A stretch of DNA of 64,000 nt from Halegenticoccus soli (lineage in GTDB: Archaea; Halobacteriota; Halobacteria; Halobacteriales; Haloferacaceae), in assembly GCF_002844195.1 (NCBI RefSeq), contig NZ_PEND01000005.1:372001-436000 (forward strand). The letters are read 5' to 3'. Made by a program: the position numbers and the translations under genes. The notes beneath the pieces are model-generated. The model saw only the letters and a program-made list of their open reading frames with translations. It was not told where the DNA came from and did not search any database. This document shows, piece after piece, positions 12,890-34,016 of the stretch; the stretch's first letter is position 1, and every line of letters starts with the position of its first letter.

Positions 12890-13079
12890 CGAGCGGGGCT
12901 AAGAATCCCTTCCTTACTAACCTATTGGCCGAGGAAAATGCATGTCCTACACACGGTGTTACTCCCAAGATCATCATTTCTTCTACGAGTTAAAATTGAG
13001 ATGAAACACCAGCCAGGATATGACTCTTTTGGGGAAAGTCTTTTTAACTATTCTATCGTATGATAAACGTAGGTTAGCT

Positions 13080-14801
13080 ATGAAAAAACTAACTCGTCGA
13101 GAGATTATTGCAGGAACCATGGCCAGCGTAACATTAAGTGCTGAATCGAGCGCCCATATGACAAAAAAAGAACCAGGTCGAAACAGCGCTCCCCAAGTAG
13201 ATGAAAGTGATATGAATACAGCTTATACAAAAACATATCGGGCAAGTAGTAAAGAAGAGCTACCCGTACCAGAAAATCCACCTGCTCTTGGAGTTACTCC
13301 TGGCGGTTTTTACGAGTGGCTTGTAGGAGACGCGGAGTGGAAATACGTCCTCAAGTCTCTATCATTAGAAGAGCTAAATAAGATCCAAATCGCGTTTCCT
13401 GAAGATGACTGTCCAGGCATTCAAGAAGCAATTAATTTGCTCCCTGATACAGGGGGTAAAGTAATCCTACTTGAAGGGACATATGAGGTGAAAGATGGGA
13501 CAGCAAATGAAGCAGCTATATTCGTTAATAAAAGTAACGTGACCATTGAAGGACAAGGTCACTCAACAAAGATATTCCTCCCAGACGGTATTACTGAGCC
13601 AGGTAAGGGGAAATCTATTTTAGATATTGGTCAGCCTGCTCATGAAAGTAATCCACAGATTGTTACTGGATGTCATCTAAAAGACTTTCTCATTGATGGA
13701 AATATGCAAAATCAAAACCCTGATGAAATAACGGATCTAAGTGATATGCATAATATAGAAGTGGTCGGTAGTAGGCACAAATTTTCCAATCTTTGGTCAG
13801 TCAATTCTACGGGAGATGGTCTCGAATTAACTAGCAAGCAAGACCCATCGGTTACAACTGATATCACAGTAGCGAACTGCCATTTCCACGATAATAATGA
13901 GCATTGCATTCATTTCCATGGCTGCCAGAACGTTACGGTTTCTAACTGCATTCTTGATGGGGAACGACAATCTACCGTCATTTCTACGTGGACAAATGTC
14001 ACCGATAATAAGGATATTACTCTCGATGGGTGCCAGATACTTAACGGTAAAGGGAGAAGTGGGATTGAAATTAAGGCAGATACTTCACAAGTAGTTGACG
14101 GAAGTCAACGGAAGACACGTGGTTTTCGTATGAGTGATTGTCTTGTCGCCTACAATAACGGTTTAGGTCTAATGATTGATGGGCGTTTCTCGGAAGATAT
14201 TGAGATTACAAACTGCACTTTCCTCGAAAATGGTAAGGGTAATGGCACACACAACGTGAAACTTGAGGGAGGTCAGGATGTACAAATCATTGACTGTTCG
14301 TTTAAACATGGATGGATGGATGGCCTGTTAATATCAACTGCGCGAAGTGAGGTCAAAGATGTGGCAATTAAGAATAATGTTATTAAGAACAATAACCAAA
14401 AAAGTGGATCATTCCCGAGCGGACTCGGTGTAGAAGTAGCTGGAAATAACATCACACGGCTTCGAGTGACCGACTTAGATATTATTTCGGATGAGAATTC
14501 ACCAAAACACTATTTTGGAGTTAGAGTTATCGAGAGGTCACCGGCCGTTTACCAGGATGTCGACTTTTCCGGAGTTTATATCAAAGGAGCAAGCAGAGAG
14601 GAGTGGTACAATATAGATATTATCGCTGATTATTTAGGAGAAAATAACCCTACGAAACCGATCGATGTAAGGCAATTGAAGCAAGAAGTCGGGAATCAAG
14701 CCTACCATGACGGAAGTGGAGGGAACACACCCGGTCCTGCATTTTACGATAATACTATAAGTGCATGGAGATCACTTGTCGACGGGACAACAATAAGGTA
14801 G
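13080..14801 (+). CDS. Tat-exported right-handed beta-helix protein (pectate-lyase-like)
   Basis: 573 residues from the ATG at 13080; an upstream GTG in frame would place 20 non-signal residues before the leader. MKKLTRREIIAGTMASVTLS is a Tat leader. From about residue 115 (CPGIQEAINLLPDTGGKVIL) the protein shows the repeating xNCxFxxN coils of a parallel beta helix. Members are polysaccharide lyases/hydrolases or structural spikes; no catalytic site was identified. The tail YHDGSGG...AWRSLVDGTTI resembles the tails of the beta-helix paralogs at 18-34 kb. AT-rich compared with the MoxR locus before it. Confidence 0.82.
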   Translation: MKKLTRREIIAGTMASVTLSAESSAHMTKKEPGRNSAPQVDESDMNTAYTKTYRASSKEELPVPENPPALGVTPGGFYEWLVGDAEWKYVLKSLSLEELNKIQIAFPEDDCPGIQEAINLLPDTGGKVILLEGTYEVKDGTANEAAIFVNKSNVTIEGQGHSTKIFLPDGITEPGKGKSILDIGQPAHESNPQIVTGCHLKDFLIDGNMQNQNPDEITDLSDMHNIEVVGSRHKFSNLWSVNSTGDGLELTSKQDPSVTTDITVANCHFHDNNEHCIHFHGCQNVTVSNCILDGERQSTVISTWTNVTDNKDITLDGCQILNGKGRSGIEIKADTSQVVDGSQRKTRGFRMSDCLVAYNNGLGLMIDGRFSEDIEITNCTFLENGKGNGTHNVKLEGGQDVQIIDCSFKHGWMDGLLISTARSEVKDVAIKNNVIKNNNQKSGSFPSGLGVEVAGNNITRLRVTDLDIISDENSPKHYFGVRVIERSPAVYQDVDFSGVYIKGASREEWYNIDIIADYLGENNPTKPIDVRQLKQEVGNQAYHDGSGGNTPGPAFYDNTISAWRSLVDGTTIR

Positions 14802-17953: not shown

Positions 17954-19285
17954 CTAGTGGATTGCCCCACCGTCAATCTGCGAAATCCAGTTGTTCCCGT
18001 TCCAGACAGCCAGTCCAGTTGGGTAATTACCCTCCCCGTTGTGAATCCCTTTATCGCCAACATACAGGCCGCTAACACCTCGTAGATCAGTTGGCACGAT
18101 ATCACCGTTATCACGGAGTCTTAAAGCATTCGAGCCCGTCTTGATAAACGGTGTATTGTCGAGAGCGAGATGCGATGACCGGTGGAGGTCAATGTCAGCG
18201 ACGTTTGAGACGAAGATAAGCGCATCTTCGTAATTCCGGTACGTCGAGTTGTTGATACTCACCTTATGGGCACTGTCGACAAAAATTCCGTGGTATCCCT
18301 TACTGCGTCCGTTAGGTGCGGTCCGAGCGTAGATACCTTGGAAATAACAGTCCCGAACTGTAAAGCACCCAGAGCCTCCGGGAAGGAAGATCTCTTGAGG
18401 GTACTCGGAACTCATACCATTTCCTTCGAAGTAGATATTGTAGAGACCTTGACCTCTCCCATAGGTAGCTTTGATGCCAGCTGCGCCGTTGTTTTGGATG
18501 GTACCACCGTGAAAGCTTGATGAGTTCCCCCGAAGCTCGACACCGGGAAGGTTGTTTCCGTCATAAAGCCCGCAGAAAAGGGCGTGACACCCAAAGAAAT
18601 TCGTATTAGCAGGCTTCGCACTTTGATTTAACTTGAACCCGACTCCTCTACAAGACCAGGCCATACAGTCAATAAAATTAAGTCCGGGAGATAGCCTCGG
18701 CCTACCCTCCGGAGATGTATAACCATCAACTTCGATGCCATGCGATTGGTTTTTGAAGAGGATCAGCCCGCGGTACGTCGAGTATGGGACGCCACGGATG
18801 CGCATCCCAACGTTCCCTCCGATGAGTTTAAGGTCGCTCACCAATGCCCTGTTTTCAAAGTCTCGCTGACCAGTTCCGAGGACTTCGATGACGCTCGCGT
18901 TCACGCCAGTTGCGTCAATCTCTGAGCCGGCAGGATGCCCTCCGGTTAACGAGATCTTCTTCTGGGTGAGATCGAGCTGGATCGGGAAAGTTTCGCCAGC
19001 GGTCTGCGCATCATACGAACCGTGAACATAGATTATGTCACCATCCTCCGCGGCTGCAATGGCCTCTTGAATAGTATTGTAGCCGTTTGGCGTCCCAACG
19101 ACGAGTCGTCCGCCGATGTTCATCTCGTCGGGACCGTATATGATTCGCGCTCCTTCGGTATCGCTCTGTTGTGTCTCGATCTGTTTGGCAATCCCCGTGT
19201 TAGGAGCGTTCTCGTCGAAGAATCCGACCTGCGGTTGGGTTTCTGGAGCTGTGCTTTCGTCGACCATATTGTTATCTTCTCTCAT
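17954..19285 (-). CDS. Right-handed beta-helix protein, leaderless paralog (pair A, downstream member)
   Basis: 443 residues (start at 19285; an ATG at codon 7 is also possible). The N-terminus is polar with no Tat or Sec leader. From ~residue 47 come RIIYGPDEMNIGGRLVVG and GYNTIQEAIAAAEDGD, the first coil of a pectin-lyase-like beta helix, then repeated coils such as FIDCMAWSCRGVGF and TYRNYEDALIF. The tail is LAVWNGNNWISQIDGGAI. It lies 113 bases downstream of a Tat-bearing paralog and is very close in sequence to the gene at 31227. Probably part of a secreted hetero-complex. No enzymatic residues were identified. Confidence 0.8.
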   Translation of the reverse strand: MREDNNMVDESTAPETQPQVGFFDENAPNTGIAKQIETQQSDTEGARIIYGPDEMNIGGRLVVGTPNGYNTIQEAIAAAEDGDIIYVHGSYDAQTAGETFPIQLDLTQKKISLTGGHPAGSEIDATGVNASVIEVLGTGQRDFENRALVSDLKLIGGNVGMRIRGVPYSTYRGLILFKNQSHGIEVDGYTSPEGRPRLSPGLNFIDCMAWSCRGVGFKLNQSAKPANTNFFGCHALFCGLYDGNNLPGVELRGNSSSFHGGTIQNNGAAGIKATYGRGQGLYNIYFEGNGMSSEYPQEIFLPGGSGCFTVRDCYFQGIYARTAPNGRSKGYHGIFVDSAHKVSINNSTYRNYEDALIFVSNVADIDLHRSSHLALDNTPFIKTGSNALRLRDNGDIVPTDLRGVSGLYVGDKGIHNGEGNYPTGLAVWNGNNWISQIDGGAIH

Positions 19286-19398
19286 TTTTTATCCGTGTTT
19301 TTGTGTTGTTCTACTGTACAATCAGGCATACGAAGAATCGAAAAACCCTGCTAGAGCTGATTGCCATGCCGTGACAATCTCTCCGCACAGGAGTTTCG

Positions 19399-20829
19399 TC
19401 ACTGGATCACACCTCCGTCGATCTGGGAGATCCAGTTGCTTCCGTTCCAAACCGCCAGTGCGAGGGGGTAGCCGCCGCTTCCGTCGTGGATTCCTTTATC
19501 ACCATCGTAGAGGCCCTCTATGCCGCGCAAATCGGTCGGTGCGATATCGCCGTGATTGCGAAGCCGCAGAACGTCCGAAGTTGTATTGACGAACTGCGTG
19601 CCGTCAAGCCCGAGGTGCGAAGACCGATAAAGGTCTACGTCGCGGGCGTTTGTGACGTAAACGAAGGCGTCTTCGTAGTTCTGGTACGTCGAGTTTGCGA
19701 CGCTCACGTTCGGAGCGTTAGCGATGGCGATGCCTCGGAATCCTTTGGTTCGTCCGTTCGGTGCGTTCTGAGGGTAATTCCCCCGGAAGTAACAGTCGAG
19801 AAGTGCGAGATCCGGTGAGGTTTCGCCGACGAATACTTCCTGCGGATATTGCGAGCTCATCCCGTTCCCCTCCAAATACGTATTATATATGCCCTGTACT
19901 GCTCCAGAGCGAGCGTCGATACCGGACGAACCGTTGTACTGTACCGTACCGCCGTGAAAACTTGAGGAAAACCCTCGGAGCAGAACGCCGGGTAGATTGT
20001 TCCCGTCGTACAGGCCACAGTAGAGCGCGTGACAGCCAAAAAAGGTGGTACTGTGCGGGCGCGCGCCCGGATCCAACCTGAATCCGACACCGCGACAGGC
20101 CCAGGCCATACAGTCGATGAAGTTAACTCCGAAGGTACCTCTAAATTCACCGTCTGGTGAGGTATACCCCTCGACCTGAACACCGTGCGACCGATTTTCA
20201 AAGAAAATCAGTCCGCGGTATGTCGAGTATGGAACGCCCTGAACGCGGAGTCCGATGTTACCACCGATAATCTTGAGATCTTGTATAAGTGCCCGATTAC
20301 GGTAGTCGCGCTGGCCACTGCCGAGCACTTCGATGACGTTGGCGTCCACGCCCGTTGCGTCGATCACTGAACCGGCGGGGTGCCCGCCGGTCAACGAGAT
20401 CTTCTTCTGGGTGAGATCGAGTTGGATCGGGAACTGTTCGCCGGCGGTCTGTGCATCATACGATCCGTGGACGTAGATTGTATCGCCGTTTTCGGCCGCG
20501 GCGATAGCCTCCTGTATCGTGTTGTAGCCGTTCGGTGAGCCGACGACGAGTCGGCCCCCGACGTTCATCTCGTCCGGCCCATATACGAGGCGCGCCCCGC
20601 CGGTGTCGGTCTGCTGTGTCTCAACCTGGGGAGAGACGTTGTTGCTTCGATCTCTCCGCGTAACGGACGCGCCGAAGGCCCCAGCGCTAAGAGCGCCGAG
20701 GAAGCTCCGTCGAGACCACTCTTCGGATTCGGTCTGATCCCTCTCTGGAGCGTTGATGAAGCGATCGGCCACATCGTCTTCGGCCTGTTCCTCTCCGATT
20801 GATTTTCTTCCGTTTCTGTTTGTCTTCAA
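19399..20829 (-). CDS. Tat-exported right-handed beta-helix protein (pair A, upstream member)
   Basis: 476 residues from a TTG at 20829; a GTG at codon 20 is the alternative, and both retain the leader. An acidic lead-in precedes SRRSFLGALSAGAFGAS, a Tat signal. The body repeats the module GARLVYGPDEMNVGGRLVVG, then GYNTIQEAIAAAENGD, then beta-helix coils, and ends in LAVWNGSNWISQIDGGVI. Its closest relative in the window is the gene at 32634, so this gene and its leaderless neighbour form a duplicated cassette. Probable surface or secreted protein. Confidence 0.82.
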   Translation of the reverse strand: MKTNRNGRKSIGEEQAEDDVADRFINAPERDQTESEEWSRRSFLGALSAGAFGASVTRRDRSNNVSPQVETQQTDTGGARLVYGPDEMNVGGRLVVGSPNGYNTIQEAIAAAENGDTIYVHGSYDAQTAGEQFPIQLDLTQKKISLTGGHPAGSVIDATGVDANVIEVLGSGQRDYRNRALIQDLKIIGGNIGLRVQGVPYSTYRGLIFFENRSHGVQVEGYTSPDGEFRGTFGVNFIDCMAWACRGVGFRLDPGARPHSTTFFGCHALYCGLYDGNNLPGVLLRGFSSSFHGGTVQYNGSSGIDARSGAVQGIYNTYLEGNGMSSQYPQEVFVGETSPDLALLDCYFRGNYPQNAPNGRTKGFRGIAIANAPNVSVANSTYQNYEDAFVYVTNARDVDLYRSSHLGLDGTQFVNTTSDVLRLRNHGDIAPTDLRGIEGLYDGDKGIHDGSGGYPLALAVWNGSNWISQIDGGVIQ

Positions 20830-21017
20830 TGCAAGTTATTCTGTAATTCTATACACTGTTTGTTATTGTTTTAATATATTATATTATTCTATCTCTACTC
20901 CTGGAGAAATTGAACTCTAACAGCCTATAACTTGTTGTTGTTTTTGATTAGTGTATGAATTAATTAATAAAATTCTCTAAGAAATATTATTAAATTTAGG
21001 AATTTACGGGTTAGACG

Positions 21018-23057
21018 ATGATGGGTGAATTAACTCGTAGGAAGATACTGAAAAGAGCCGCTGGAGTGGGCACAATCGCCATAGGAAGCCGAAGCGTGGA
21101 GGCCGATAGCACACCCCAGCCGGATCGACTTATAATTGGAACTGCGACGGAGAGGGCGATGGAGGCGGTTCAGACCGAAGCAGCTGCGGTCCATCAAACG
21201 CTCGACTTCGGCCGAATCGGCGGAGCTGTCGTCGGGACCTTCCCCTCCGAGAGCTGTAGTATGCTCAGTAGCCGTAGCGACGTCCGCTACGTCGAGCCGG
21301 ACGGGATTCTCGAGGCGACGGGGCACGGCTCCAGCGGAACCCAGACCATTCCCTGGGGCGTCGATCGGATCGACGCCGACGAGGTGCACCACGACGGCTA
21401 CACCGGGAGGGGCGCGGACATCGCCATCATCGACACTGGCATCGACTCGGATCACCCCGACCTTCAGGCGAATCTCGGGGCTGGAAACGCGTACGTGCCG
21501 TGCGGAACAACCGTTTCGGGCGAACCGTGCACGCAGTCCAACGGCAACGACTGTCTCCAGCCCTGGGACGACGACAACGATCACGGCACGCACGTTGCCG
21601 GCACCGCTGACGCGGTGAACAACGCCGAGGGCGTCGTCGGCGTCAGCACCAGAGCGACCCTCCACGCGCTGAAAGCGCTCGATTGCAACGGACAGGGGTA
21701 CTACTCGGACGTCGCCGCCGCAATCGTCTACACCGCCGACCAAGGGTGGGAGGTCGCCAACTTGAGCTTGGGCGGCGACGTCGGCTCGCAGACGGTTCAC
21801 GACGCCTGTAAGTACGCATACCGCAACGGCGTGCTGCTGGTTGCGGCCGCCGGCAACGACGGGTGCGAAGGCTGCGTCGACTACCCGGCCGCCTACCCCG
21901 AGGTGATCGCGGTGAGTGCAACGACGCGAAATGACGCGGTCGCGTCGTTCTCCTCGACGGGCCCCCAGATCGAACTCGCCGCGCCAGGCGCCGAGATCTA
22001 CTCCACCGTCGCCGGCGGGTACGCCACCTTCTCGGGAACGTCGATGGCGGCACCGCACGTCGCGGGCGCGGGCGCGCAGCTGATGGTGGTCGGGTTCAAC
22101 AACGCGAACAACGTTACGTACGACGAGAGCGGCGAGCTCTCCCAGGACAGCTACGAGAATCCCGACGGTGCCCGCGGTCGCCTCCGCCAGACGGCGGAAG
22201 ATCTCGATCTGCCCGCTAGCGCCCAGGGGTACGGATTAGTCGACGTCGAGGCCGCGCTCGCGATCGGCGAAAGCGGCACCGTCTCGGTCGATCAGCCGGA
22301 CCGAAACACGTGGCGTACCGTCTCGCTCAGGGGAGCCTATGACGATCCTGTTGTGATCATGAAGCCGGTCTCCTACAATGGTGTTCACCCTGCTCATGTG
22401 AGGCTTCGGAACGTCCAAAGCGAGAGTTTTGAATTTCAGATCGAAGAGTGGGCGTATCAGGACGGTAAGCACGTACAAGAAACGATCCAGTATATCGTCA
22501 TGGAATCCAGCACGTACGTTTCATCGGCTGGTAACAGGATTGAAGTAGGAACGATGACGACAAATCATCAGTTTACTGAACGTAATTTCACCCAGAACTT
22601 CACTACTAAGCCAGTTATTTTCGCCCAGTCGCAGACTCACAACGGTCCATACCCAATAGCCGTTCGTCAACGGAACACTTCGAGCACTAGCACCGAGATC
22701 CGCCTGCAAGAAGAAGAAGGGTTAGATGGGATTCATGTGAGCGAGACGGTAGGATACATGGCAATTGAACCGGGCGTGTTCAATATTAACGGTACACAAT
22801 TCGAAGTCGGACGAACGCCTGACGCTGTGACTGACACCTGGTACAATATTTCATTCACAGAAAGCTACGAAACACCTCTGTTCCTGGCCGATTTACAGAC
22901 GTTTGACGGATCGGATACAGCAACCCTTCGATATCGAAACCTCTCTAGCTCTGGAGTAGAAATTTCCGTCCAGGAAGAACAAAGTAGAGATACGGAAACA
23001 CAGCATACGACGGAGGTAGTAGGATATGGAGTAATTGAAACAGGTGGTCTCATATAG
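21018..23057 (+). CDS. Halolysin-type subtilisin protease (S8) with three C-terminal repeats
   Basis: A 679-residue protein. The Tat leader is LTRRKILKRAAGVGTIAIG. A propeptide (about 35-105) is followed by the catalytic domain with Asp139 (IIDTGIDSDH), His189 (DHGTHVAGT) and Ser342 (FSGTSMAAPHVAGA). Cysteines in the VPCGTTVSGEPC loop may form disulfides. From about residue 430, three related ~80-residue beta-rich repeats follow, with cores such as QTHNGPYPIAVRQRN and a closing ETVGYMAIEPG. Extracellular protease; the repeats may bind surface glycan or mediate secretion. The catalytic half is GC-rich and the repeat half clearly AT-richer, suggesting a mosaic origin. Confidence 0.92.
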   Translation: MMGELTRRKILKRAAGVGTIAIGSRSVEADSTPQPDRLIIGTATERAMEAVQTEAAAVHQTLDFGRIGGAVVGTFPSESCSMLSSRSDVRYVEPDGILEATGHGSSGTQTIPWGVDRIDADEVHHDGYTGRGADIAIIDTGIDSDHPDLQANLGAGNAYVPCGTTVSGEPCTQSNGNDCLQPWDDDNDHGTHVAGTADAVNNAEGVVGVSTRATLHALKALDCNGQGYYSDVAAAIVYTADQGWEVANLSLGGDVGSQTVHDACKYAYRNGVLLVAAAGNDGCEGCVDYPAAYPEVIAVSATTRNDAVASFSSTGPQIELAAPGAEIYSTVAGGYATFSGTSMAAPHVAGAGAQLMVVGFNNANNVTYDESGELSQDSYENPDGARGRLRQTAEDLDLPASAQGYGLVDVEAALAIGESGTVSVDQPDRNTWRTVSLRGAYDDPVVIMKPVSYNGVHPAHVRLRNVQSESFEFQIEEWAYQDGKHVQETIQYIVMESSTYVSSAGNRIEVGTMTTNHQFTERNFTQNFTTKPVIFAQSQTHNGPYPIAVRQRNTSSTSTEIRLQEEEGLDGIHVSETVGYMAIEPGVFNINGTQFEVGRTPDAVTDTWYNISFTESYETPLFLADLQTFDGSDTATLRYRNLSSSGVEISVQEEQSRDTETQHTTEVVGYGVIETGGLI

Positions 23058-24103
23058 CGAGTACTTCGCAAATCAGATGGTGGAAATACTATCACATCAT
23101 AGGCACAAGACGGTTCTCTATCAGATTTTTCGAAGAATCGGGATCTCATCGAACAGACGGGTTTACTTGTGTCTCTTTCCTTAGCGTTACCCGCGAGCAT
23201 ACAAATGGTTTTAATACTATATCAGTAGCTCCCTGGCCGCCTCCGCTAGTATCGAATACGTAGGATCCAGTTCCGCACAGTACAAATTTTATCTGTTGTA
23301 ACGTCAGTCAATCGAATGTGCCTGCAGGATAGTCTAAAATATCATTATATTTTTCGTCCAGAGACACAGAGACAGAGAGGAAAACTGGCACGTCCAAATA
23401 GAGCCCTCATGTGAAATTTGAGGAGACAGGGCTTCTGTGGATAATATCTGTAGTTTTATAATTTGAAGAAGCCCGAATTGTCTCCCTCAAACGTCAGTTC
23501 TATGTTTAGGATGAATTTCGCAGTGGCCGCGTCGAATCACCGAATCGATGCAGGCACCTCGTCGGGGTATTACACATCTACACCTACACGGCCCCACAAT
23601 GAGAGGAACAGTGGTGTCTCGAACGAAGCAAGCGTGACCCGCCGTGTGAATCCTGTGTTCGCCTTTTCCGGATCGGTTTCTACATCGTCTATCATTATTA
23701 TTTTCTGATCACACCATGGGCAACGATACTTTCCCAGCTTAGACAGCTGAAAATGGCTGTGCATTATTCGCATATAATTGTACAAGTCAGAGAAGGGGTT
23801 TGCACAAGCCTCCAACGAGACATGCGGCTGTAACCTACATGGTTGTCTGTTGAGTGGAGTCCACACTTACTCTGATTTAAAGAGGGCTTCCATGGTTCCG
23901 GCAGAATACACAACTGCCAAGAATATTTGATAGAGGAGGTGAAACGAAAAGGAGCCGATACCAAAACCGAGTATCACAACTAATGAAACAGTCTCTATAG
24001 CCGTATTTAATAATATTGTTGGGAGACTCGTCTGCAAACCACATAAATATCTCCGGAGATGACCTCGATGGTTTTTAGTTGGAGCTGAACATTGCTTCAC
24101 GTT
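23058..24103. other. 1-kb gap, mostly degenerate sequence
   Basis: No secure gene. On the minus strand, a weak frame starting at 23866 (GTG) or at an internal ATG contains KYRCPWCDQKIIMIDD, a CxxC knuckle. A second minus frame ending at 23867 has a hydrophobic stretch (ILLNTAIETVSLVVILGFGI). Both could be remnants of small genes; codon use and length do not support firm calls. Confidence 0.4.
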
Positions 24104-25843
24104 ATGAGAAAGGTGAAAATAGCCGCAACCCTTGCCACAGTATGTTTCTCTGCGGGGATACTCGGCACTCACACGACGGGGATGCTCTATCCGTGGCACC
24201 CTCTTGGTGCGATTGGTGCAGGACTTTCTCTGATCTGGGGGATCTGGGCTGTTCGGACGCGTCGAGAGGGTCTTGCGGTGGTAGTCCTTGCAGGCCTCTT
24301 AGCAGTCGGATATCGGGTCTATTCGTTTGCATTCCCATCGAGCCTCATGGGGTTTGATCCGGATGCTCATGCGGTTCGGAGTCAGATTATCATACAGAAT
24401 GGCGGAACAGAGCAGCTCATTGGATTGTTTTACTCAGAAGCTGTATTGTTCCACGTCCTTGGGGCTGAGACCGCACTTATCACAGGTCTCCCAATCGATA
24501 CTGCCTTTGGGATCTTTCCGCTCACGATTGGCGTTGGTGTTGTCGTCTTCGCGGCGACATTGACGAACCAACTTCAGCGATCGTGGGGTGTTAGTGGGGA
24601 GGCCGTGGGTAAGGCGATTGCCGTAGCGGCGGTGGTCGCAGCGGTCGGGGGATCAACAATTCGCTACGCGACTATGCCTATCCCTACCACCCTATCTGCC
24701 CTTCTCCTCGCGAGCTTTGTTTCTGTATTCATCGTTTATCGAGAAACTGGGTTTGATATCCGGCCCTTTATTATCCTTGCAGGACTGGTCGCTGCGCTCG
24801 TTTACCTTCATAAAGTCTCTGTGCTGATTGCGTTTGGAATAGTTATCTTCCTAACCTTGCTTTGGAGTGTCGATTGGTGGATCACGTCACGTTCCCCGGC
24901 GTCGTACGTCTCTGGACCAGTAATCGGACTACTGGGCGTGATCATCTCTGTGCAGTGGCTGTTTGTTACCGAATACATTAACCCCTATACAGGCGTTGTG
25001 GTGATTCTCGCTGCGCTAACGAATGCAGATTTGTCACTGCTTTCCCAGACGCCAACATATACAGCTGCGACAAAGTACACGGTCCCGCTGTGGCGTACAG
25101 TCCTGAATTCGAGTTTCATTCCGTTCATCCTCGGAGCGGGCGGAGTAGCGTGGCTTAGTCTCTTTACCCGTCGCCGTGGCGACGTGCCGACGCGTGCAGT
25201 CCTCGCTGCGGCAGCAGTAACAGTTGGATTTGCACTCCCAGGCTTGGCTATTAGCGCCGCCCCAGGTTTTCGTCGCCAATTCGCGATGGCGAGCGTGTTC
25301 GTCGCCGTTCTTATCGGTATTGTTTGTACTCGCGCGTGGGCACCATGGTCTTCGTCGACAGCCGGTCGTGAACGAGTGGTTAGCGTATTGTTAGTTAGCG
25401 TTGTTGCTGTGATCATCGTCACGCAACTTCTCTCCCCACTTGCGACTCCGGACCATCCGGACATGCATCGCCAGTACCTGACTGAAGCGGAGGTCGACGC
25501 AAAACACTTCTCAAATCAGCATGTTGGTGACCTTGTTCATGCTGAGATGTATTACGCAGATGAGGTTGTGGATTTTCCACGCGCGGCACGAGGGGGCGCG
25601 GTTCATCAACAAACAGTGCCAAACCCTCAGTGGCGACCCGGTCTAATGAGCATTGAATTACTGAATGCGACGCTCATTGAGCAAGAGTATGAATACGTTG
25701 CCGTGCGACCGAAAGTCGAGATTTATCGGCTTGTAGGCGGGCGGTATCTCTTGGAGTGGGAACCGGAGCGCGAGTTAGACAGCAATTATCACCGAGTATA
25801 TGTAAATCGAGACGTCAATATCTATCGTCAGGCGAGCGATTGA
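24104..25843 (+). CDS. Polytopic membrane protein, GT-C glycosyltransferase-like
   Basis: 579 residues from the ATG at 24104. About 10-12 membrane segments fill residues 5-435, and a ~140-residue extracytoplasmic domain forms the C-terminus. GFDPDAHAVRSQ in the first outer loop resembles the acidic catalytic motif of GT-C enzymes that use polyprenyl-phosphate sugars (oligosaccharyltransferase/ArnT-like). The fold call rests on topology plus this motif. A role in surface glycosylation fits the region. It could instead be a non-enzymatic membrane protein. Confidence 0.6.
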   Translation: MRKVKIAATLATVCFSAGILGTHTTGMLYPWHPLGAIGAGLSLIWGIWAVRTRREGLAVVVLAGLLAVGYRVYSFAFPSSLMGFDPDAHAVRSQIIIQNGGTEQLIGLFYSEAVLFHVLGAETALITGLPIDTAFGIFPLTIGVGVVVFAATLTNQLQRSWGVSGEAVGKAIAVAAVVAAVGGSTIRYATMPIPTTLSALLLASFVSVFIVYRETGFDIRPFIILAGLVAALVYLHKVSVLIAFGIVIFLTLLWSVDWWITSRSPASYVSGPVIGLLGVIISVQWLFVTEYINPYTGVVVILAALTNADLSLLSQTPTYTAATKYTVPLWRTVLNSSFIPFILGAGGVAWLSLFTRRRGDVPTRAVLAAAAVTVGFALPGLAISAAPGFRRQFAMASVFVAVLIGIVCTRAWAPWSSSTAGRERVVSVLLVSVVAVIIVTQLLSPLATPDHPDMHRQYLTEAEVDAKHFSNQHVGDLVHAEMYYADEVVDFPRAARGGAVHQQTVPNPQWRPGLMSIELLNATLIEQEYEYVAVRPKVEIYRLVGGRYLLEWEPERELDSNYHRVYVNRDVNIYRQASD

Positions 25844-26037
25844 TAACACTAGAGTCATAATGCTACTTTATAAGTGGTTTCACATAGCTTTTTTCTCAGG
25901 GGTAAAGCCGATGGATAAATCTGCTAGCTTTTAGAATGGTGTCCCTCTCTAAGATTTTACCCTCATTGCGGCTCTTCACGTTGCCGAGTCAAGATTCATA
26001 CTCTATGGAGCCCAATTTGCGTAGGGTGCTCCTTGAT

Positions 26038-26045
26038 CCCCCATT
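26038..26045. repeat. Target-site duplication, left copy
   Basis: The octamer CCCCCATT immediately left of the IS6-type element is repeated at 26788-26795. Eight-base duplications are standard for the IS6 family. Confidence 0.75.
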
Positions 26046-26787
26046 GGGGCACTGTCTAGTTAAGCAGTTTGAGAAGGCGAGGAGTTCATGCGGTGAGTGT
26101 CCATGTCACTACAAGAACTCCTCGCTGAAACGTTGGACGGGGAAGCGTTTCAGTGTTGGGAGCGAGAGCGGACGGCGACGCCCGTCAGGGCGTTCGCCGT
26201 CCGCCTCCACGCAGCTGGGCATTCACTCCGGGAAACAGCCGCTATCTTAGCGCTCCTCAACGTGGATCGCTCGCACCAGGCGATTTGGCAGTGGAAAGAA
26301 CGGTTGGCCGACAGCAGATGCGACCCGCGTCGGCGACGCCGACGCGGGTCGCTGTCGACGAAACCGCTGTCCAGATCGACGGTGAATGGCACTGGGTGTA
26401 CGCCGCCATCGATGTCACAACAAAGTTACTGCTGGACATCGAGCTGTTCAGCCGTCGTGGCACCGATCCTGCTGCCGCATTTCTCCAGGGATTGACCGAG
26501 AAACACGACCTCTCGGAGGCCGTGTTTCTCGTCGATGGCTATGGCTATCTGACTGCCCTCTCTCGTGTCGGAGTGAGCGGTCGGCTAGACTATTCGCTCC
26601 GAAACCATGTCGAACGGTGGTTTCAGACCCTCAAAGTGCGGACTGACCGCTTCCATACGAGCTGGGTGGGCAGTCGGTCGGCTGTGAGACGCTGGCTCCA
26701 GCAGTTCAAACGCTATTACAACCACGATCGACCGCATCAAGCACTCAACGGACGAACGCCTGCGGAGGTTATCTAGACAGTGCCCCC
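26046..26787 (+). mobile_element. IS6-family insertion sequence
   Basis: Bounded by near-perfect terminal inverted repeats (GGGGCACTGTCTAG at 26046-26059, and its complement at 26773-26786) and flanked by an 8-base direct repeat. It contains one transposase gene split by a frameshift. Intact ends and duplication point to a fairly recent insertion, although the transposase is not a single frame. Confidence 0.88.
26103..26776 (+). pseudogene. IS6-family transposase, frameshifted
   Basis: The N-terminal part reads from the ATG at 26103 (MSLQELLAETLDGEAFQCWE, then RLHAAGHSLRETAAILALLN with the HTH, then WKERLADS). Coding continues in the -1 frame from about 26315 with RVAVDETAVQIDGEWHWVYA (first DDE Asp), DIELFSRRGTDPAAAF, then VDGYGYLTAL and the terminal RRWLQQFKRYYNHDRPHQAL. 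The frame change falls within a palindrome of two 15-base arms around one base (about 26319-26349). Either a one-base loss inactivated the gene or a -1 ribosomal shift joins the halves; the former is more likely. Confidence 0.85.
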
Positions 26788-27089
26788 CCCCCATTGTTTC
26801 ACGTAAGTTGAGTCAGATTAAATGTGTGCGGACGTATGCACTCAAACTGTCTCCACCTCTGAGAATAAACGTATGTTGTTCAGCTGGGTGGGTCAGATGA
26901 AAGTGGAGGTGACTGTGTTTGATATGCACTTTACTGTGTATCTCGGTGAAGCTCACTTTCGTTGTCTGATAGACAATTTGAGATCTCGGCGCTGTTGTGC
27001 GTATCCTGCCAGACCTGATTTCGGGGAAGAGCTCTAGGAACCATGCGAAACAGTTGGTTGATTGATCTAGCGCCTAGTTTGAAAATGAA
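26788..27089. other. Intergenic, right target duplication then no gene
   Basis: Positions 26788-26795 are the right copy of the IS6 target duplication. The rest, to the end of the beta-helix gene, has only a weak 71-codon frame at 26822 without recognisable features. Confidence 0.45.
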
Positions 27090-28844
27090 TTACACTGTCC
27101 AAGCATCTTGCCATACTTCCCCGTTGTGAATGCGCTTACCGCGTTTTCCAGTTTCCGTGTTCGTCCCGTCATCAAGATACTCAGTCCCATTTATAGGATT
27201 TGCCGGAACGATAGGTGAGTAATCATTACCATTCTTGGCCTCATTGTGGAGTGTTCGTACGTATTTTCGGATGTTAACATCGGTGGGGAAGACAATATCT
27301 TTGAAATCATTATTCTGGAAATAATTATTCCGAATAACCGAATCACCGCCGTACTCTGTCGCCGTGTTTTCAAACTTTAAACCGGCATTCGCCGTGTTTT
27401 CGAACCGGCAATCATCAATAACAAAATCCACAAAGTTAGCGGATGAGGCAACGGTCTCCATAGTGAATGCAACTTCTCGACTGTTATTATCGAAAACACA
27501 ATCTTTAATGGAGAGCCCACCAACCGTTCCGCCCCGGACCTGCAGTCTTCTATCACGCCCATTATACACCCGACAATCGGCTACTGTCACGTCCTTTAGC
27601 GTTGCAGCCCCTGCATTAATGAGGATCCCGACACCTGAAGCGCCCCTAACTTCACAGTCAATAAGGCGCACGCGCTCGACACTTTGATGGAATCCTCCTA
27701 TCGTGAATCCTGTTCGCCCTGGTGTAACGACTTTACATCCGTCACACCACACATCGGAGCATGGTCCATAGGTCGCGATGGTTTGGCCATGTGTCTTACC
27801 TACTTGGAACCCGCCAGCCACAGGATTGATAGCCACGCAGTCAATGAATGCACAGTCCGTCGCACCGTCTTCAATCTCAAAACAGTCAGTCGTCCAGTCA
27901 CCGGCGCGGCGTTTGTTAATGCTGATGCACTCATGAGTGTAGACGTTCTGACTGTTTACTGATATCGAGATGTCATCGTCGCCGCTAGAATCATTCAACA
28001 GACAATTATCGATACGTCCGACTGTACTGCCATCACTCACCTCAATACCGTGTCGGAACCCTCCAGTGATGGTTACATTATCAATGCAGAAACGATCACA
28101 CCCCGTCGTACCGTCACCCCGACGGGCACCGACCTTGATGCCCATCGTATCGTGCCGCTCGCTCGTCTGGGTGCGAACGCCCGCGTCAACCTTCAGGTTT
28201 CGGATCTCCCAGTCAGTGACATTCGAACACCAGACAGGCGAGGCAAGATTGGGGATACTGGAGTCAGCGTCATAGAAGAGCACCGTTTGGTCACCCGCAC
28301 CTTGAAGAATAACATTCGATTTCATTGCCAGGCAGTAGTCCTCACCGTCGGCGTCCTGGCCTTGGACGGAGAGAGTGTACGTTCCCGGTCCGAATTGGAT
28401 GACCCCTCCACCTGCGTTACTTACCTCGTCAATAGCTGACTGGATCTCATTAGTTGCCATAGACGGATCGACAATACGCTCAAATGCGTTGTAGAGCCGC
28501 TCCGTGCTTATTGATGGGGTGGGGCTAGCTACTGACCCTATCGGAGGATGAGTTACCCCTCCGTTTTCATCCTTGACACCGATTTCGCCATCATCGGTCA
28601 ACCAGTACAGTTCACCAGCCTGCATAACACTGGCATCGAACATACTCTTCGGTGCAGTGATGTAGTAGTCGCGCGTGTATTGTTGGGTAAGTTCCTCAAT
28701 GCGGCGGTCTTCGTTTGCGGTTCTTTGGTGACTGCCGGTGGTGATTCCTGAGCCCCCAGTTAGTATACCGGTCGCCATGAGAAGCTCCCGGCGGCTTAGG
28801 CGAATATTATTAGACAGAGAATCATCGTCTTTATGTTTAGCCAT
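27090..28844 (-). CDS. Tat-exported right-handed beta-helix protein
   Basis: A 584-residue protein. LSRRELLMATGILTGGSGI is a Tat leader at about 17-35. The next segment contains YWLTDDGEIGVKDENGG, a short W/DG module like those seen at protein ends elsewhere in this region. The beta helix begins near residue 145 (GGGVIQFGPGTYTL), with coils such as CDRFCIDNVTITGGFRHGIE and IDDCRFENTANAGLKFENTA. The tail EYLDDGTNTET...RIHNGEVWQDAWTV parallels the other beta-helix proteins. Secreted or cell-surface; pectate-lyase-like fold with no active site identified. Confidence 0.82.
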   Translation of the reverse strand: MAKHKDDDSLSNNIRLSRRELLMATGILTGGSGITTGSHQRTANEDRRIEELTQQYTRDYYITAPKSMFDASVMQAGELYWLTDDGEIGVKDENGGVTHPPIGSVASPTPSISTERLYNAFERIVDPSMATNEIQSAIDEVSNAGGGVIQFGPGTYTLSVQGQDADGEDYCLAMKSNVILQGAGDQTVLFYDADSSIPNLASPVWCSNVTDWEIRNLKVDAGVRTQTSERHDTMGIKVGARRGDGTTGCDRFCIDNVTITGGFRHGIEVSDGSTVGRIDNCLLNDSSGDDDISISVNSQNVYTHECISINKRRAGDWTTDCFEIEDGATDCAFIDCVAINPVAGGFQVGKTHGQTIATYGPCSDVWCDGCKVVTPGRTGFTIGGFHQSVERVRLIDCEVRGASGVGILINAGAATLKDVTVADCRVYNGRDRRLQVRGGTVGGLSIKDCVFDNNSREVAFTMETVASSANFVDFVIDDCRFENTANAGLKFENTATEYGGDSVIRNNYFQNNDFKDIVFPTDVNIRKYVRTLHNEAKNGNDYSPIVPANPINGTEYLDDGTNTETGKRGKRIHNGEVWQDAWTV

Positions 28845-29056
28845 ATACGTCGAATACGCAGCTTCTAATAAAAATTTTTCTTAATAATTATTAGAATATA
28901 ATATTGAATAGCTATTCAATTGGTTTTCTGAGATAGTATGAGGGGGCGGTGGCCAGTCAAAGTACAAGTAGTTCTCGAGATCAAGTAGTCTACAGTCAAA
29001 AGGACGACTCACCGTCTCCTTCGATTCCTCAACATTTAAGTGTGGAGAGCGGGGGT

Positions 29057-29200
29057 GTTACAAGAACTTTCAAAAGACATGTAATTTGGCTTCACGCCAC
29101 ACTACACACACTTCGCGAAACAGCAGCCACTCTCGAAGCGTTCAGTATCACTTGCTTATATGAAGCGATATCTCAACGGGTTCACTGCCTTGCTGAGCAA
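29057..29200 (+). pseudogene. Decayed IS6-type transposase N-terminal fragment
   Basis: Translation gives VIWLHATLHTLRETAATLEA followed by AISQRVHCLAEQ, which aligns with RLHAAGHSLRETAAILALLN and AIWQWKERLADS of the IS6 transposase at 26.1 kb. No DDE domain follows, so only the HTH segment of an old copy survives. Confidence 0.6.
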
Positions 29201-29361
29201 CCCCTAACCAACCATGAGCATACCGCGGCAATCTGTTGTCGACGACCGTATGTCAGCGGATTCTCATCGATAGCAATCCGTTGTTTACAAGCAAATGGGC
29301 GACTCTGAGAAGGTTCTCTAACTACATCCATCCCACAGGTTCAGAATAAAACGACTACAGA

Positions 29362-29396
29362 ACAATTCGAATCGGCGGTTCAGCGATTCGAATTGT
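29362..29396. promoter_or_regulatory. Perfect 13-base inverted repeat upstream of fibre-like gene
   Basis: ACAATTCGAATCG and its exact complement are separated by nine bases. It overlaps the GTG at 29395, which makes that codon an unlikely start, and lies 38 bases before the ATG at 29434. Operator or transcript hairpin; its role is not known. Confidence 0.5.
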
Positions 29397-29433
29397 GAAT
29401 ATTAAACCGAATCAGTCAGAGAATCAGTCTGTG

Positions 29434-30363
29434 ATGGAGAACACAGATATCGACCCAGATCTTGCGTCACAAATTGCCTCGACACGGCGGAACCTCCTTG
29501 CACTCCTCGGCAGTGCGGCGCTCATTGGAATAGGCACAGAGGAGACACAAGCCTCCTCAAGTTCAGACGATGCGACGATCGACGTTGAAACGGCTCGGTT
29601 CGAGAACATTCTCGTTAAAAACAACGAAAATTCCGATCAAATATCCGTCCGGGGAATTTCTGAGGCGGACAACATTGAGGATGTGGATGGGTTCACGATG
29701 GATCATGGTGTCCTTGTTGAGCGTGAGGACGGCAGGACCGATGGTCACATGCGGATCATGCTCGGGCCGGAGGTCGCCATCGGCAAATATGAGCCCGAAT
29801 ATGGGGGTGCAAGAGAGATGCTCAAAGCGCTTGACGGTCGTGTCACGCTCAAAAATGATGCGCCCGGCCGAGAGGTTGCACTCCAATCGCAGCGTGGTGG
29901 CGGTATCTCATTCTATACTAACGATGGGGGCGGAATCGGCTCGAATAGGCGTCGGCTTCACTTCGACGATATCGGCAAGCCTAAGACGAACGCAGAATTC
30001 CTCAACCTCGACACACTGACTTTAGAGGGGTTAGTCAAAGTCCGCGAAGAAGCGAGTGATGGTCCACAGTTGCTTATCAATCCTAACACCAACCAATCGT
30101 TAGTAACGTTAAACGCCCCAGGATCTATGCGATTCGTTACTGGCGGTCAACTTGACTTCGTACTTTCTAATGGGACAATACACATTAGTTCGAAAGTGAA
30201 TCTTCGCGGCAATCCGTTACAAGGCTTGCGAGAGATCAATGGTGTCTCCGGCGCCAGAGATCTCTTTTGGCGCGAATTAGCAATTGACACTCAAAATGAT
30301 CGTCTCGTTCATTCCGACAGTTCAGGAACTGTTCGGTACTGGGAGGCTGATGGTACACTCTGA
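29434..30363 (+). CDS. Tat-exported fibre-like protein
   Basis: 309 residues from the ATG at 29434 (in-frame GTGs at 29395 and 29431). STRRNLLALLGSAALIGIG is a Tat leader. The body is glycine- and beta-rich without cysteine. SKVNLRGNPLQGLREINGVS resembles the linker repeats of phage tail fibres, and LVHSDSSGTVRYWEADGTL at the end is another W/DG tail. No known enzyme motif. It sits among beta-helix genes and is likely displayed on or released from the surface. Fibre-like is a pattern-based description, not a family hit. Confidence 0.6.
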   Translation: MENTDIDPDLASQIASTRRNLLALLGSAALIGIGTEETQASSSSDDATIDVETARFENILVKNNENSDQISVRGISEADNIEDVDGFTMDHGVLVEREDGRTDGHMRIMLGPEVAIGKYEPEYGGAREMLKALDGRVTLKNDAPGREVALQSQRGGGISFYTNDGGGIGSNRRRLHFDDIGKPKTNAEFLNLDTLTLEGLVKVREEASDGPQLLINPNTNQSLVTLNAPGSMRFVTGGQLDFVLSNGTIHISSKVNLRGNPLQGLREINGVSGARDLFWRELAIDTQNDRLVHSDSSGTVRYWEADGTL

Positions 30364-30429
30364 ATATACATTAACTGATATTTGCTAAATTTCCCTAGTG
30401 AGGAAGATCATGGTTCCCTTATCGTTGAC

Positions 30430-30545
30430 ACATTAGAAGTACTCCCAAAGGCGGTTACAGCCCGGACCATGGCCGATCGTTGATTCATCAAGGAACACGA
30501 GCGGCGGGGGGTGAATGAGCGACGTCAGCCGCGAAACACCGCCGG
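30430..30545 (-). pseudogene. ABC-transporter ATPase gene fragment
   Basis: About 100 bases align with the Walker B to H-loop part of the intact ABC ATPase gene (around 35355-35460). Both contain, on the plus strand, GTACTCCCA-A/G-AGGCGGTT and TCATCAAGGAACAC/TCGTCAAGGAACAC. It encodes the remains of FLDEPTTGLDPKARNRLWEYF, with mismatches. No start, Walker A or rest of gene is present. Confidence 0.6.
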
Positions 30546-30546
30546 A

Positions 30547-31155
30547 ACCAGTGTTCATGACACCTTCCACCGAATGGGCCTAACAGCCAGTTGGTTGTGT
30601 CGGCAACAGCGGCCATGACACCATCGACGATGGGGAGGCCAAGTGCATCGTCCGCGATGATCGCCGCGATCGCGAGGAGCGCAAATCCAACTGATCCGAG
30701 TGCAGTCCACAGACCGAGAGCCGCCGTAGAATCGACTCCAAGTGCGCCGGAGAGCACGCTGGAGGCACCTGCTGCCACGTACTGTCCGGCAGGGAAGGCG
30801 TAACTCGCAGTTGCGGTTGCGTACTTCTGGGTGGTTGTCATGATCATGAGTGCCTTCTCGCGGGCACTCGTCACGATGTTCGCGTTCTTGGCCCACAGGA
30901 GCGCCTTTTCGGCGTTGGTGGACGCCCACGCCGCTGCCATCCGGACTTTCTGAGCGGCCAAGAGCGAGTACTCGACCGCGACCGCAGGCCCAGCACAGCG
31001 ACAACGATCGCCGCTGCGGCCAGTCCGAGGAGACCAACGCCAGTTGCTTTCGTCGTTCCGGGATTACTGCGAATCCCTTGTGGGAAGAGATCGTTTCTTC
31101 CGTGAAAGCGTTCAAAGCCGACTCTCGTAGGTCTCAGCGGTGAACACCGAAACAT
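30547..31155 (-). pseudogene. Alanine-rich, tape-measure-like gene remnant, frameshifted
   Basis: Two minus frames join at about 30985: GVGLLGLAAAAIVVAV in one and VEYSLLAAQKVRMAAAWAST, NAEKALLWAKNANIVTSARE and LWTALGSVGFALLAIAAII in the other. The long Ala-rich helices with embedded hydrophobic segments resemble viral tail tape-measure proteins. The similarity is compositional and I cannot confirm the family. Both ends are truncated, and an ABC ATPase fragment abuts the 3' side. Confidence 0.45.
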
Positions 31156-31226
31156 CGGCCAGCTTGTGCAGGAGATCGAAGTGCTGTTCGTCTAACGTGT
31201 AGAGTCAAGTATCTAGATAGCACCTA

Positions 31227-32558
31227 TTAAATTATTTCTCCATCGATCTGCGAAACCCAGTTGTTCCCGTTCCAGATAGCTATCCCTGCAGGGTAGTTAC
31301 CGGACCCGTCATGAACACCCTTATCTCCTTGGTAAAGGCCGCTAATTTGACGTAGATCAGTCGGACCAATATCACCGTTATTTCGGAGCCGCAAAGCGTT
31401 CGATCCCGTTTTGATAAACGGTGTCTGATCGAGTCCAAGATGCGATGATCGATATAACTCAAGGTCAGCGACGTTTAAGGCGTAAATAAACGCGTCTTCG
31501 TAATTCCGGTACGTCGAATTGTTGATACTCACTTTGTGTGCACTGTCGACGAAAACTCCATGATACCCCTTACTACGTCCGTTTGGTGCAGTCCGTGCAT
31601 AGACTCCTTGGAAATAACAGTCACGAACTGTGAAACATCCGGATCCTCCGGGGAGATACACCCCTTTGGGATACTCAGAACTCATGCCATTCCCTTCGAA
31701 ATAGATATTATAGATACCCTGACCCCTGCCATAAGTAGCCTTAATTCCTGCTGCGCCGTTATTTTGTATCGTGCCACCGTGAAAACTCGACGAGTTCCCA
31801 CGAAGCTCAACCCCTGGAAGGTTGTTTCCATCGTAAAGCCCGTTGAAGAGCGCATGACACCCGAAAAAAGTTGTGTTAGCAGGCCGTGCACTCTGAGCCA
31901 ATTTGAATCCTACTCCACGGCAAGACCACGCCATGCAGTTAATGAAATTGCTACCGCGCGACCAACGGGACTCGCCCTCGGGAGTCGTATACCCCTCAGC
32001 TACGACTCCATGAGATTGGTTTTTGAAGAAGATCAACCCGCGATAAGTCGAATAAGAGACGCCACGGATTCGGAGCCCAATGTTACCGCCGATGAGTTTA
32101 AGATCACTTACGAGGGCATGGCTTCGTCGGTCATTCTCTCCATCACCGATAATTTCAATGATATTTTTCGAAGTGCCGGTCGCATCAATTTCGGAACCGG
32201 CTGGATGTCCCCCAGTTAATGCAACCCGTTTTTGAGTGAGATCAAGTTGAATTGGGAACGCTTCACCCGCAGTTTGTGCATCGTACGAGCCGTGGACATA
32301 CACAAAGTCCCCGTCTTCTGCGGCATCTATCGCCTCCTGAATTGTATTGTACCCATTCGGAGTACCAACGACAAGTCGACCACCAACGTTCATTTCATCG
32401 GGCCCGTACGAGAATCGTGCACCCTCCGTCTCGGACTCTTGCGAAGTAATTTGACTATTAAATTCCATCATAGTTTCATGTGTCTTATCTGATTCTTGAC
32501 TGCGTTCAGTTTTCGAAGCTTTCCTAGCATTCTGTTCGTTGTCATACCAAGGGTTCAT
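31227..32558 (-). CDS. Right-handed beta-helix protein, leaderless paralog (pair B, downstream member)
   Basis: A 443-residue protein, the same length as its counterpart at 17954. The polar N-terminus (MNPWYDNEQNARKASKTERS) has no export signal. It then follows the shared module (RFSYGPDEMNVGGRLVVG, GYNTIQEAIDAAEDGD), beta-helix coils including FINCMAWSCRGVGFKLAQSA, and the tail IAIWNGNNWVSQIDGEII. It lies 75 bases downstream of the Tat-bearing member. More AT-rich at silent positions than pair A, so the duplication is not recent. Role as for pair A. Confidence 0.8.
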   Translation of the reverse strand: MNPWYDNEQNARKASKTERSQESDKTHETMMEFNSQITSQESETEGARFSYGPDEMNVGGRLVVGTPNGYNTIQEAIDAAEDGDFVYVHGSYDAQTAGEAFPIQLDLTQKRVALTGGHPAGSEIDATGTSKNIIEIIGDGENDRRSHALVSDLKLIGGNIGLRIRGVSYSTYRGLIFFKNQSHGVVAEGYTTPEGESRWSRGSNFINCMAWSCRGVGFKLAQSARPANTTFFGCHALFNGLYDGNNLPGVELRGNSSSFHGGTIQNNGAAGIKATYGRGQGIYNIYFEGNGMSSEYPKGVYLPGGSGCFTVRDCYFQGVYARTAPNGRSKGYHGVFVDSAHKVSINNSTYRNYEDAFIYALNVADLELYRSSHLGLDQTPFIKTGSNALRLRNNGDIGPTDLRQISGLYQGDKGVHDGSGNYPAGIAIWNGNNWVSQIDGEII

Positions 32559-32633
32559 CTCAGTATTCTGGACTCCTAAGTTGGGGAATCAAGCTGGCTA
32601 CATCAAACCTACTTCTATCACGGGTGATTTTCA

Positions 32634-34016
32634 TCATTGAATAACACTCCCGTCGATCTGTGAGATCCAGTTGCTGCCGTTCCAGACGGCTAGCGCAAAA
32701 GGATAATCGCCACTACCGTCATGAATACCTTTATCACCGTCATAAAGACCGCTAATTCCCCGGAGATCAGTGGGAGCAACATACCCGTTGTCGCGGAGCC
32801 GGAGAACGCTTGGTGCTGCATTTACGAACTGAGAATCGTCAAGCCCCAGGTGAGTAGACCAACAAAGATCTACGTCTCGGGCATTTGAGACGTAGACGAA
32901 CGCGTCTTCGTAATTCTGGTACACGGAGTTCTGAACAGTCACATTTGGAGCGTTAGCAATGGAGATACCACGATAGCCCTCACCTCTCCCATTAGGCGTA
33001 TCGCTTGGAAGAGTTCCATTAAAATAACAATCTCGAACAGCAAAGTCAGGTGATGTCTCGCCCACAAATATTTCTTCCGGAGCTGGTGAGGCCATTCCAT
33101 TACCCTCGAAATAGGTATTATAGATACCCTGTGCCGCACCAGAGCGAGCATCAATTCCGGCTGCACCATTGTTTTGGATGGTTCCACCATGGAAGCTTGA
33201 GGAGAACCCACGTAATTGAACGCCAGGGAGATTATTCTCCTCAGATACTCCACAATAGAGTGCATGACTCCCGAAGAACGTCGTACTGTGGGGCCGTGCA
33301 CTCGGATTCAGGTGGAAGCCAATACCGCGGCATCCCCAAGCTAGACAATCAATGAAGTTAACACCGAACGTTCCCCGAAATTCCCCTTCTGGGGTGGTGT
33401 AGCCTTCTATTTCGACACCATGAGATTGATTCTGGTAGAAAATGAGCCCTCGATAGGTTGAGTACGGAACGCCACGAAGTCGAAGCCCAATGTTCCCACC
33501 AGTAATTGTGAGATCATCTACGAGCGCTCTGTTACGGTAATCACGTTGTCCAGTTCCAAGGACCTCGAGAACATTTGCATCGACACCACTAGCGTCGATT
33601 TCCGATCCTCCAGTATGCCCACCAGTAAGTGAGATCTTTTTTTGAGTGAGATCAAGTTTAATTGGGAAGGTTTCGCCAGCGGTTTGGGCATCATACGAGC
33701 CATGGACAAAGATGGTATCACCGTCCTCAGCATCGCTAATTGCCTCTTGAATTGTATTATACCCGTTTGGATCACCCACAATGAGTCGGCCACCGATATT
33801 CATTTTATCAGGGCCATATACAAAGCGGGACCCACTCACGTCTGCTTGTTGTGCACCTACTTGTGGGTGTATTTCGGAAGCCGTTCCCGTGTTACTCGTA
33901 GGAACGGGGAGTGTACTAAGCCCAAGGACGCCGAGGAATTCACGTCGAGACCAATCCGTTCCTAGGTCTTCATCAACTAGTGAATTATCCGCACCCCTTA
34001 ATATTTTACCTCTCAT
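32634..34016 (-). CDS. Tat-exported right-handed beta-helix protein (pair B, upstream member)
   Basis: 460 residues from the ATG at 34016. DWSRREFLGVLGLSTLPVPT is a Tat leader. The body follows the shared plan (RFVYGPDKMNIGGRLIVG, GYNTIQEAISDAEDGD, coils such as FIDCLAWGCRGIGF) and ends LAVWNGSNWISQIDGSVI. It pairs with the 19399 gene in length, leader and coil sequence. A promoter is expected in the very AT-rich 34017-34247 spacer. Likely the exported anchor or carrier of the leaderless neighbour (inference). Confidence 0.82.
   Translation of the reverse strand: MRGKILRGADNSLVDEDLGTDWSRREFLGVLGLSTLPVPTSNTGTASEIHPQVGAQQADVSGSRFVYGPDKMNIGGRLIVGDPNGYNTIQEAISDAEDGDTIFVHGSYDAQTAGETFPIKLDLTQKKISLTGGHTGGSEIDASGVDANVLEVLGTGQRDYRNRALVDDLTITGGNIGLRLRGVPYSTYRGLIFYQNQSHGVEIEGYTTPEGEFRGTFGVNFIDCLAWGCRGIGFHLNPSARPHSTTFFGSHALYCGVSEENNLPGVQLRGFSSSFHGGTIQNNGAAGIDARSGAAQGIYNTYFEGNGMASPAPEEIFVGETSPDFAVRDCYFNGTLPSDTPNGRGEGYRGISIANAPNVTVQNSVYQNYEDAFVYVSNARDVDLCWSTHLGLDDSQFVNAAPSVLRLRDNGYVAPTDLRGISGLYDGDKGIHDGSGDYPFALAVWNGSNWISQIDGSVIQ

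Follow-up and report, generated by a model that had tools for sequence, protein, structure and literature searches.

Apparent lineage-specific loss of the Tat leader from a conserved beta-helix paralog in Halegenticoccus soli

The window, a stretch of 64,000 nucleotides of the Halegenticoccus soli genome, contains two two-gene units about 10 kb apart, with all four open reading frames (ORFs) on the minus strand, as the initial annotation had described for two same-strand pairs. The pairs are labelled 1A-1B and 2A-2B, where A is the upstream and B the downstream gene (positions are those of the window).

19399..20829, minus strand: 1A, Tat-leader right-handed beta-helix protein, 476 aa with a TTG start; PF13229 Beta_helix, E 1.7e-6
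20659..20718, minus strand: Tat leader of 1A, WSRRSFLGALSAGAFGASVT, from hydropathy and RR scans
19286..19398, minus strand: gap between 1A and 1B, 113 bp; leader absent in all frames
17954..19285, minus strand: 1B, leaderless paralog, 443 aa; PF13229, E 1.2e-9
32634..34016, minus strand: 2A, Tat-leader beta-helix protein, 460 aa; PF13229, E 4.8e-10
33894..33953, minus strand: Tat leader of 2A, WSRREFLGVLGLSTLPVPTS, from hydropathy and RR scans
32559..32633, minus strand: gap between 2A and 2B, 75 bp; leader absent in all frames
31227..32558, minus strand: 2B, leaderless paralog, 443 aa; PF13229, E 9.7e-9

Each pair consists of tandem paralogs with 62–70% identity, which is far above chance, and A and B can be aligned from the end of the leader through the entire body to a common WNGxNWxSQIDG tail, bearing out the description of a beta-helix body and tail shared by both members. 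The TTG start of 1A and an in-frame GTG at codon 20 both lie ahead of its leader. The N-termini of 1B and 2B contain no RR and no nearby hydrophobic stretch in the RR and hydropathy scans, and the division into a leadered first gene and a leaderless second gene therefore holds. A missed upstream start adding a leader to B, which the initial annotation had named as a refuting case, or a frameshift to the same effect is ruled out, since stops close the B frame within the 210 bases ahead of each B start, and none of the frames there encodes a leader. Both B proteins are 443 residues long when the first ATG is used, although this equality should not be pressed as it depends on the choice of start (alternative ATGs are present at codons 30 and 31 of 2B and codon 7 of 1B). 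Inspection by eye of the 113 bp gap found no TATA-like box, and 1A and 1B are probably co-transcribed.

The window also encodes Tat-leader beta-helix proteins of other subfamilies at 13020-14801 (+) and 27090-28844 (-), the first of which has a PHROG match to a tail spike (E 1.2e-13). Between the two units are an IS6/IS240-type transposase at 26153-26776 (+), a possible agent of their copying, and two reading frames, 29395-30363 (+) and 30488-30961 (-), with no PHROG, NCBIfam or Pfam match; the latter is hydrophobic and alanine-rich, and may be a gene remnant. A viral or proviral origin of the units was rejected, as no phage record or viral contig was matched and none of the four proteins has a PHROG match.

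All four proteins score above the PF13229 cut-off (28.2–39.7 bits against 25.9) and show weak similarity to DUF1565 and Pect-lyase_RHGA_epim; no PHROG or specific NCBIfam family covers 1A, 1B, 2A or 2B. The AlphaFold2 model of 1B, built from 29 aligned sequences (pLDDT 85.7, pTM 0.82), contains a confident strand solenoid from residue ~59, preceded by a low-confidence, disordered segment (residues 1–58). For a fused 2A-2B chain, the homologs aligned mainly to one half. A profile match to AlgE6 extends across the helix repeats (E 1.1e-6), and Foldseek matches include polysaccharide lyases, epimerases and phage tailspikes (e.g. 5lw3, 6kfn, 7w1c, 2vbm), whose low query-normalised TM-scores (about 0.2–0.5, with 7–16% identity) leave the enzyme class unsettled. 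A Y-x-E-x-N motif is near-invariant in 29 homologs and a D-x-R motif is altered in B, neither of which was matched to a known active site.

Homologs were sought in 171 genomes from the same taxonomic family, 392 from the order, three further families and a GTDB scan, across which the beta-helix family is rare. Within H. soli itself there are nine matches, namely the four window genes, full-length copies on contigs C2, C11 and C13, and a weaker match on C10, with the C11 copy split across contig ends and counted twice. The C2 copy (C2:632625-633980, L005) is a leadered paralog with no ATG, GTG, TTG or CTG before the leader, and its start codon has possibly been lost. Contig C11 closes on itself through a 114-base overlap to give a likely plasmid of ~95.5 kb, which carries its own double TatC (C11:82492-84273) with the leadered family member ~11 kb away. 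Relatives were found in Halogranum amylolyticum and H. rubrum (G042, G044), Halorarius litoreus (G484), Haloglomus halophilum (G477), Halorubrum sp. Hd13 (G135) and Halorientalis sp. IM1011 (G258). Among those read, every full-length close homolog outside H. soli has an RR leader, and 23 of the 26 full-length homologs in the tree are leadered; a leadered/leaderless pair was not found outside H. soli in any of the genomes searched, from the family and order to the three further families and GTDB. Short distant relatives of ~305–390 aa (L028-L033, L018, L019, L013, L008) are leaderless and unpaired in several genomes, and the fold can thus probably live inside the cell. Among these short relatives, the C10 copy and one on contig C14 of genome G008 share neighbours, and those in genus g89 adjoin a Tat-leader gene.

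Members of this family are right-handed beta-helix proteins exported by Tat, and their genes often lie beside surface-polysaccharide genes. Leadered relatives frequently adjoin genes for a family 2 glycosyltransferase, a type I phosphodiesterase, an HxlR regulator and other polysaccharide functions, and the window contains flippase, sulfatase, glycosyltransferase and GDP-mannose dehydratase genes. TatC genes are present in the H. soli genome. Judging from the gene neighbourhoods of its relatives, A would be exported folded via Tat and act upon, or work together with, the polysaccharide at the cell surface, and gene context likewise points to a role at the surface glycan.

Same-strand tandem paralogs are also present in Halorarius litoreus BND22 and Haloglomus halophilum ZY41, with gaps of ~89 and 217 bp respectively. 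Tat leaders are found on both genes of these pairs, GIDRRTVLKTTATAVAGAAVG and VGRRDILKAAGLAAGATLLSG in the upstream members and VERREFLQAAGVASIPGIAGC and VGRRTLLQAAGTSSASVLAGC in the downstream members; the downstream leaders carry an AGC lipobox, in contrast to the leaderless B of the window. The expectation that leader presence would be fixed by position within a pair is thus not borne out, and genes of this beta-helix family can be paired in tandem without either one being leaderless. Phylogenetically, the upstream genes of Halorarius and Haloglomus group in one clade and their downstream genes in another, while the window quartet stands as a separate clade; these pairs therefore lack one-to-one orthology with those of the window.

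Within the quartet, 1B and 2B are sisters with support of 100/100. The simplest history is therefore a single leader loss that preceded copying of the unit, and the two window pairs are not independent cases of loss. The dN/dS of the 1B-2B bodies is 0.067, an approximate value since synonymous sites are near saturation, and such strong purifying selection indicates that these are not decaying copies. The argument that conservation in two copies speaks against accidental loss consequently stands in that the loss is old and fixed, and falls in that the two pairs share a single ancestral event.

A third leaderless, full-length paralog is found on contig C13 (C13:16209-17414, L006), unpaired and with an intact body; it has no leadered family neighbour, and a polysaccharide deacetylase gene lies downstream. 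Comparison of its leader region with that of the C11 paralog (NSRHTSQQTPGAESLA--ND in C13, WSRRSFLQTTGAGSLALGSG in C11) shows that it no longer has the second arginine, has lost hydrophobic residues and is shorter by two codons (a 6-base deletion), changes that arose mainly through substitutions and with no frameshift. The first 50 codons of the C13 copy carry ~22 nonsynonymous and 7 synonymous changes, about three times as many, which is as expected once constraint is lifted, so that selection for leader loss need not be invoked; the bodies of the C13 and C11 copies have a dN/dS of 0.18. The C13 loss is independent of that in 1B and 2B.

Leader-discordant tandem paralogs are not a general habit of this genome, at least within the 1.6 Mb scanned with our own ORF and leader caller, roughly a third of the total, where the two window pairs are the only credible cases. 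Three other flagged pairs were rejected, two because they contain a chance RR inside non-exported proteins and one because both members are leadered, with one leader masked by an over-long ORF.

B also differs from A in features other than the leader. The D-A-R found in all close leadered relatives is replaced as follows.

18464..18472, minus strand: K-A-T in 1B, residues 272-274
31734..31742, minus strand: K-A-T in 2B

B contains more lysine, and its body pI of 6.1–6.4 is the highest predicted in the family. The fixed D-x-R to K-x-T changes and the added lysines show that B has become specialised and is more than A minus its leader, while nearly all residues conserved in the exported relatives, tail included, are kept. 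The downstream member is less acidic than its partner in every pair, with body pI values of 6.1 and 6.4 for window B against 5.2 and 4.6 for A, 5.9 against 5.05 in Halorarius and 5.7 against 5.2 in Haloglomus. N-glycosylation sequons and charge, compared across the proteins, gave no decision on the location of B.

The claim that these comparisons support most strongly is that a functional paralog has undergone lineage-specific loss of its Tat leader. In the history that we consider very probable, an ancestral leadered gene would have been duplicated in tandem during a lineage-specific expansion, a single loss would have removed the Tat leader from the downstream copy, and the two genes would later have been copied as a unit. 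The leaderless B has since been maintained as a protein by strong purifying selection while fixing its own changes. In the full reading that we prefer, A leaves the cell folded through Tat and would act at the surface polysaccharide, whilst B would be a relocalised paralog retained in the cytoplasm, where, as a guess, it perhaps binds or processes the same kind of glycan inside the membrane before export. To this explanation as a whole, cytoplasmic B included, we assign a probability of roughly 0.45. The cytoplasm is slightly favoured because an unpaired leaderless copy persists, related pairs are leadered on both members, and distant leaderless relatives are unpaired; the intact C13 copy in particular shows that a neighbouring partner is unnecessary for a leaderless copy to persist.

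The alternative proposed in the initial annotation is that A and B co-fold into a mixed oligomer in the cytoplasm, which would then use the leader of A to leave by the Tat route. For the features by which Tat hitchhikers are recognised, both window pairs have a leadered partner, a signal-less partner and joint encoding. The bodies are constrained although the leader is gone, and the survival of A-B adjacency in both copies of the unit is what a functional partnership predicts, which argues against a cytoplasmic B. So does the retention in B of conserved sites, whose biochemistry may suit the location of A, and a pI of 6.1–6.4 is atypical of proteins in a high-KCl cytoplasm; the lower acidity of the downstream member in both kinds of tandem pair can be counted on the same side. 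Many of the PDB beta-helix matches are phage tailspikes, which are trimers. In addition, for each leaderless copy the same genome encodes a leadered paralog of 68–83% identity, while the paralogs of leadered genes elsewhere reach at most 67%, consistent with a more general form in which a leaderless copy is carried by a closely similar leadered paralog, either in cis (1A-1B and 2A-2B) or in trans (C13-C11). Against this, equally close leadered paralogs (C11-C2 and 1A-2A) have kept their leaders, and the established precedents, hydrogenases and PaoABC, are cofactor enzymes of unlike subunits (PMC4273604, PMC10924467). The both-leadered pairs of Halorarius and Haloglomus, together with the unpaired C13 copy, argue against a fixed two-part system, whereas the age and fixation of the loss and the constraint on the leaderless bodies are compatible with hitchhiking in this one genome, which we regard as somewhat less probable than a cytoplasmic B. 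The broader proposition, that paralogous beta-helix subunits co-assemble in the haloarchaeal cytoplasm so that leaderless ones would be exported on a sister's leader, without cofactors, the leader being dispensable given a close leadered paralog, is rather unlikely.

It is improbable that B is a redundant leftover whose leader was lost by neutral decay and which is bound to disappear. The nonsynonymous excess in the C13 leader region and the C2 copy without a usual start codon would fit such decay, but the strong constraint on the 1B and 2B bodies, with the reservation about synonymous saturation given above, would not. Residues 123-145 of 1A (20395..20463, minus strand) have a synonymous identity to 1B of 0.86 against 0.41 (permutation p 0.006) and are a possible gene-conversion tract, with no significant tract in pair 2. 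The idea that B is a sequence store feeding variation into A by gene conversion, for which a leader would be unneeded, is still less probable, since this single short tract and the repeated copies within one genome are set against B-specific conserved residues and a low dN/dS in B as a separate protein clade.

The relocalised-paralog reading and its hitchhiking rival pose a question of wider reach, namely whether Tat carries mixed paralog oligomers in archaea or an exported family has been recruited inside the cell. Leader loss alone reveals no new system; two leader losses in one genome, with the bodies under selection, would nevertheless provide a clean natural test, and either outcome changes the annotation of leaderless homologs of secreted proteins.

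Tat hitchhiking is established for E. coli HybO-HybC and for PaoABC (PMC4273604, PMC10924467), and the window pairs resemble these complexes in that a leadered protein is encoded beside a leaderless one. They differ in that the known complexes are proven and join unlike cofactor-enzyme subunits, whereas the window pairs are paralogs, and, unlike the HybO-HybC and PaoABC arrangement, related pairs of the family elsewhere keep both leaders. The four proteins are like other PF13229 right-handed beta-helix proteins in passing the cut-off and in the predicted solenoid of 1B, and unlike them in lying outside the PHROG and specific NCBIfam families. With mannuronan C5-epimerases, alginate lyases and tailspike depolymerases they share the AlgE6 profile and Foldseek matches, from which they are set apart by the low TM-scores and identities.
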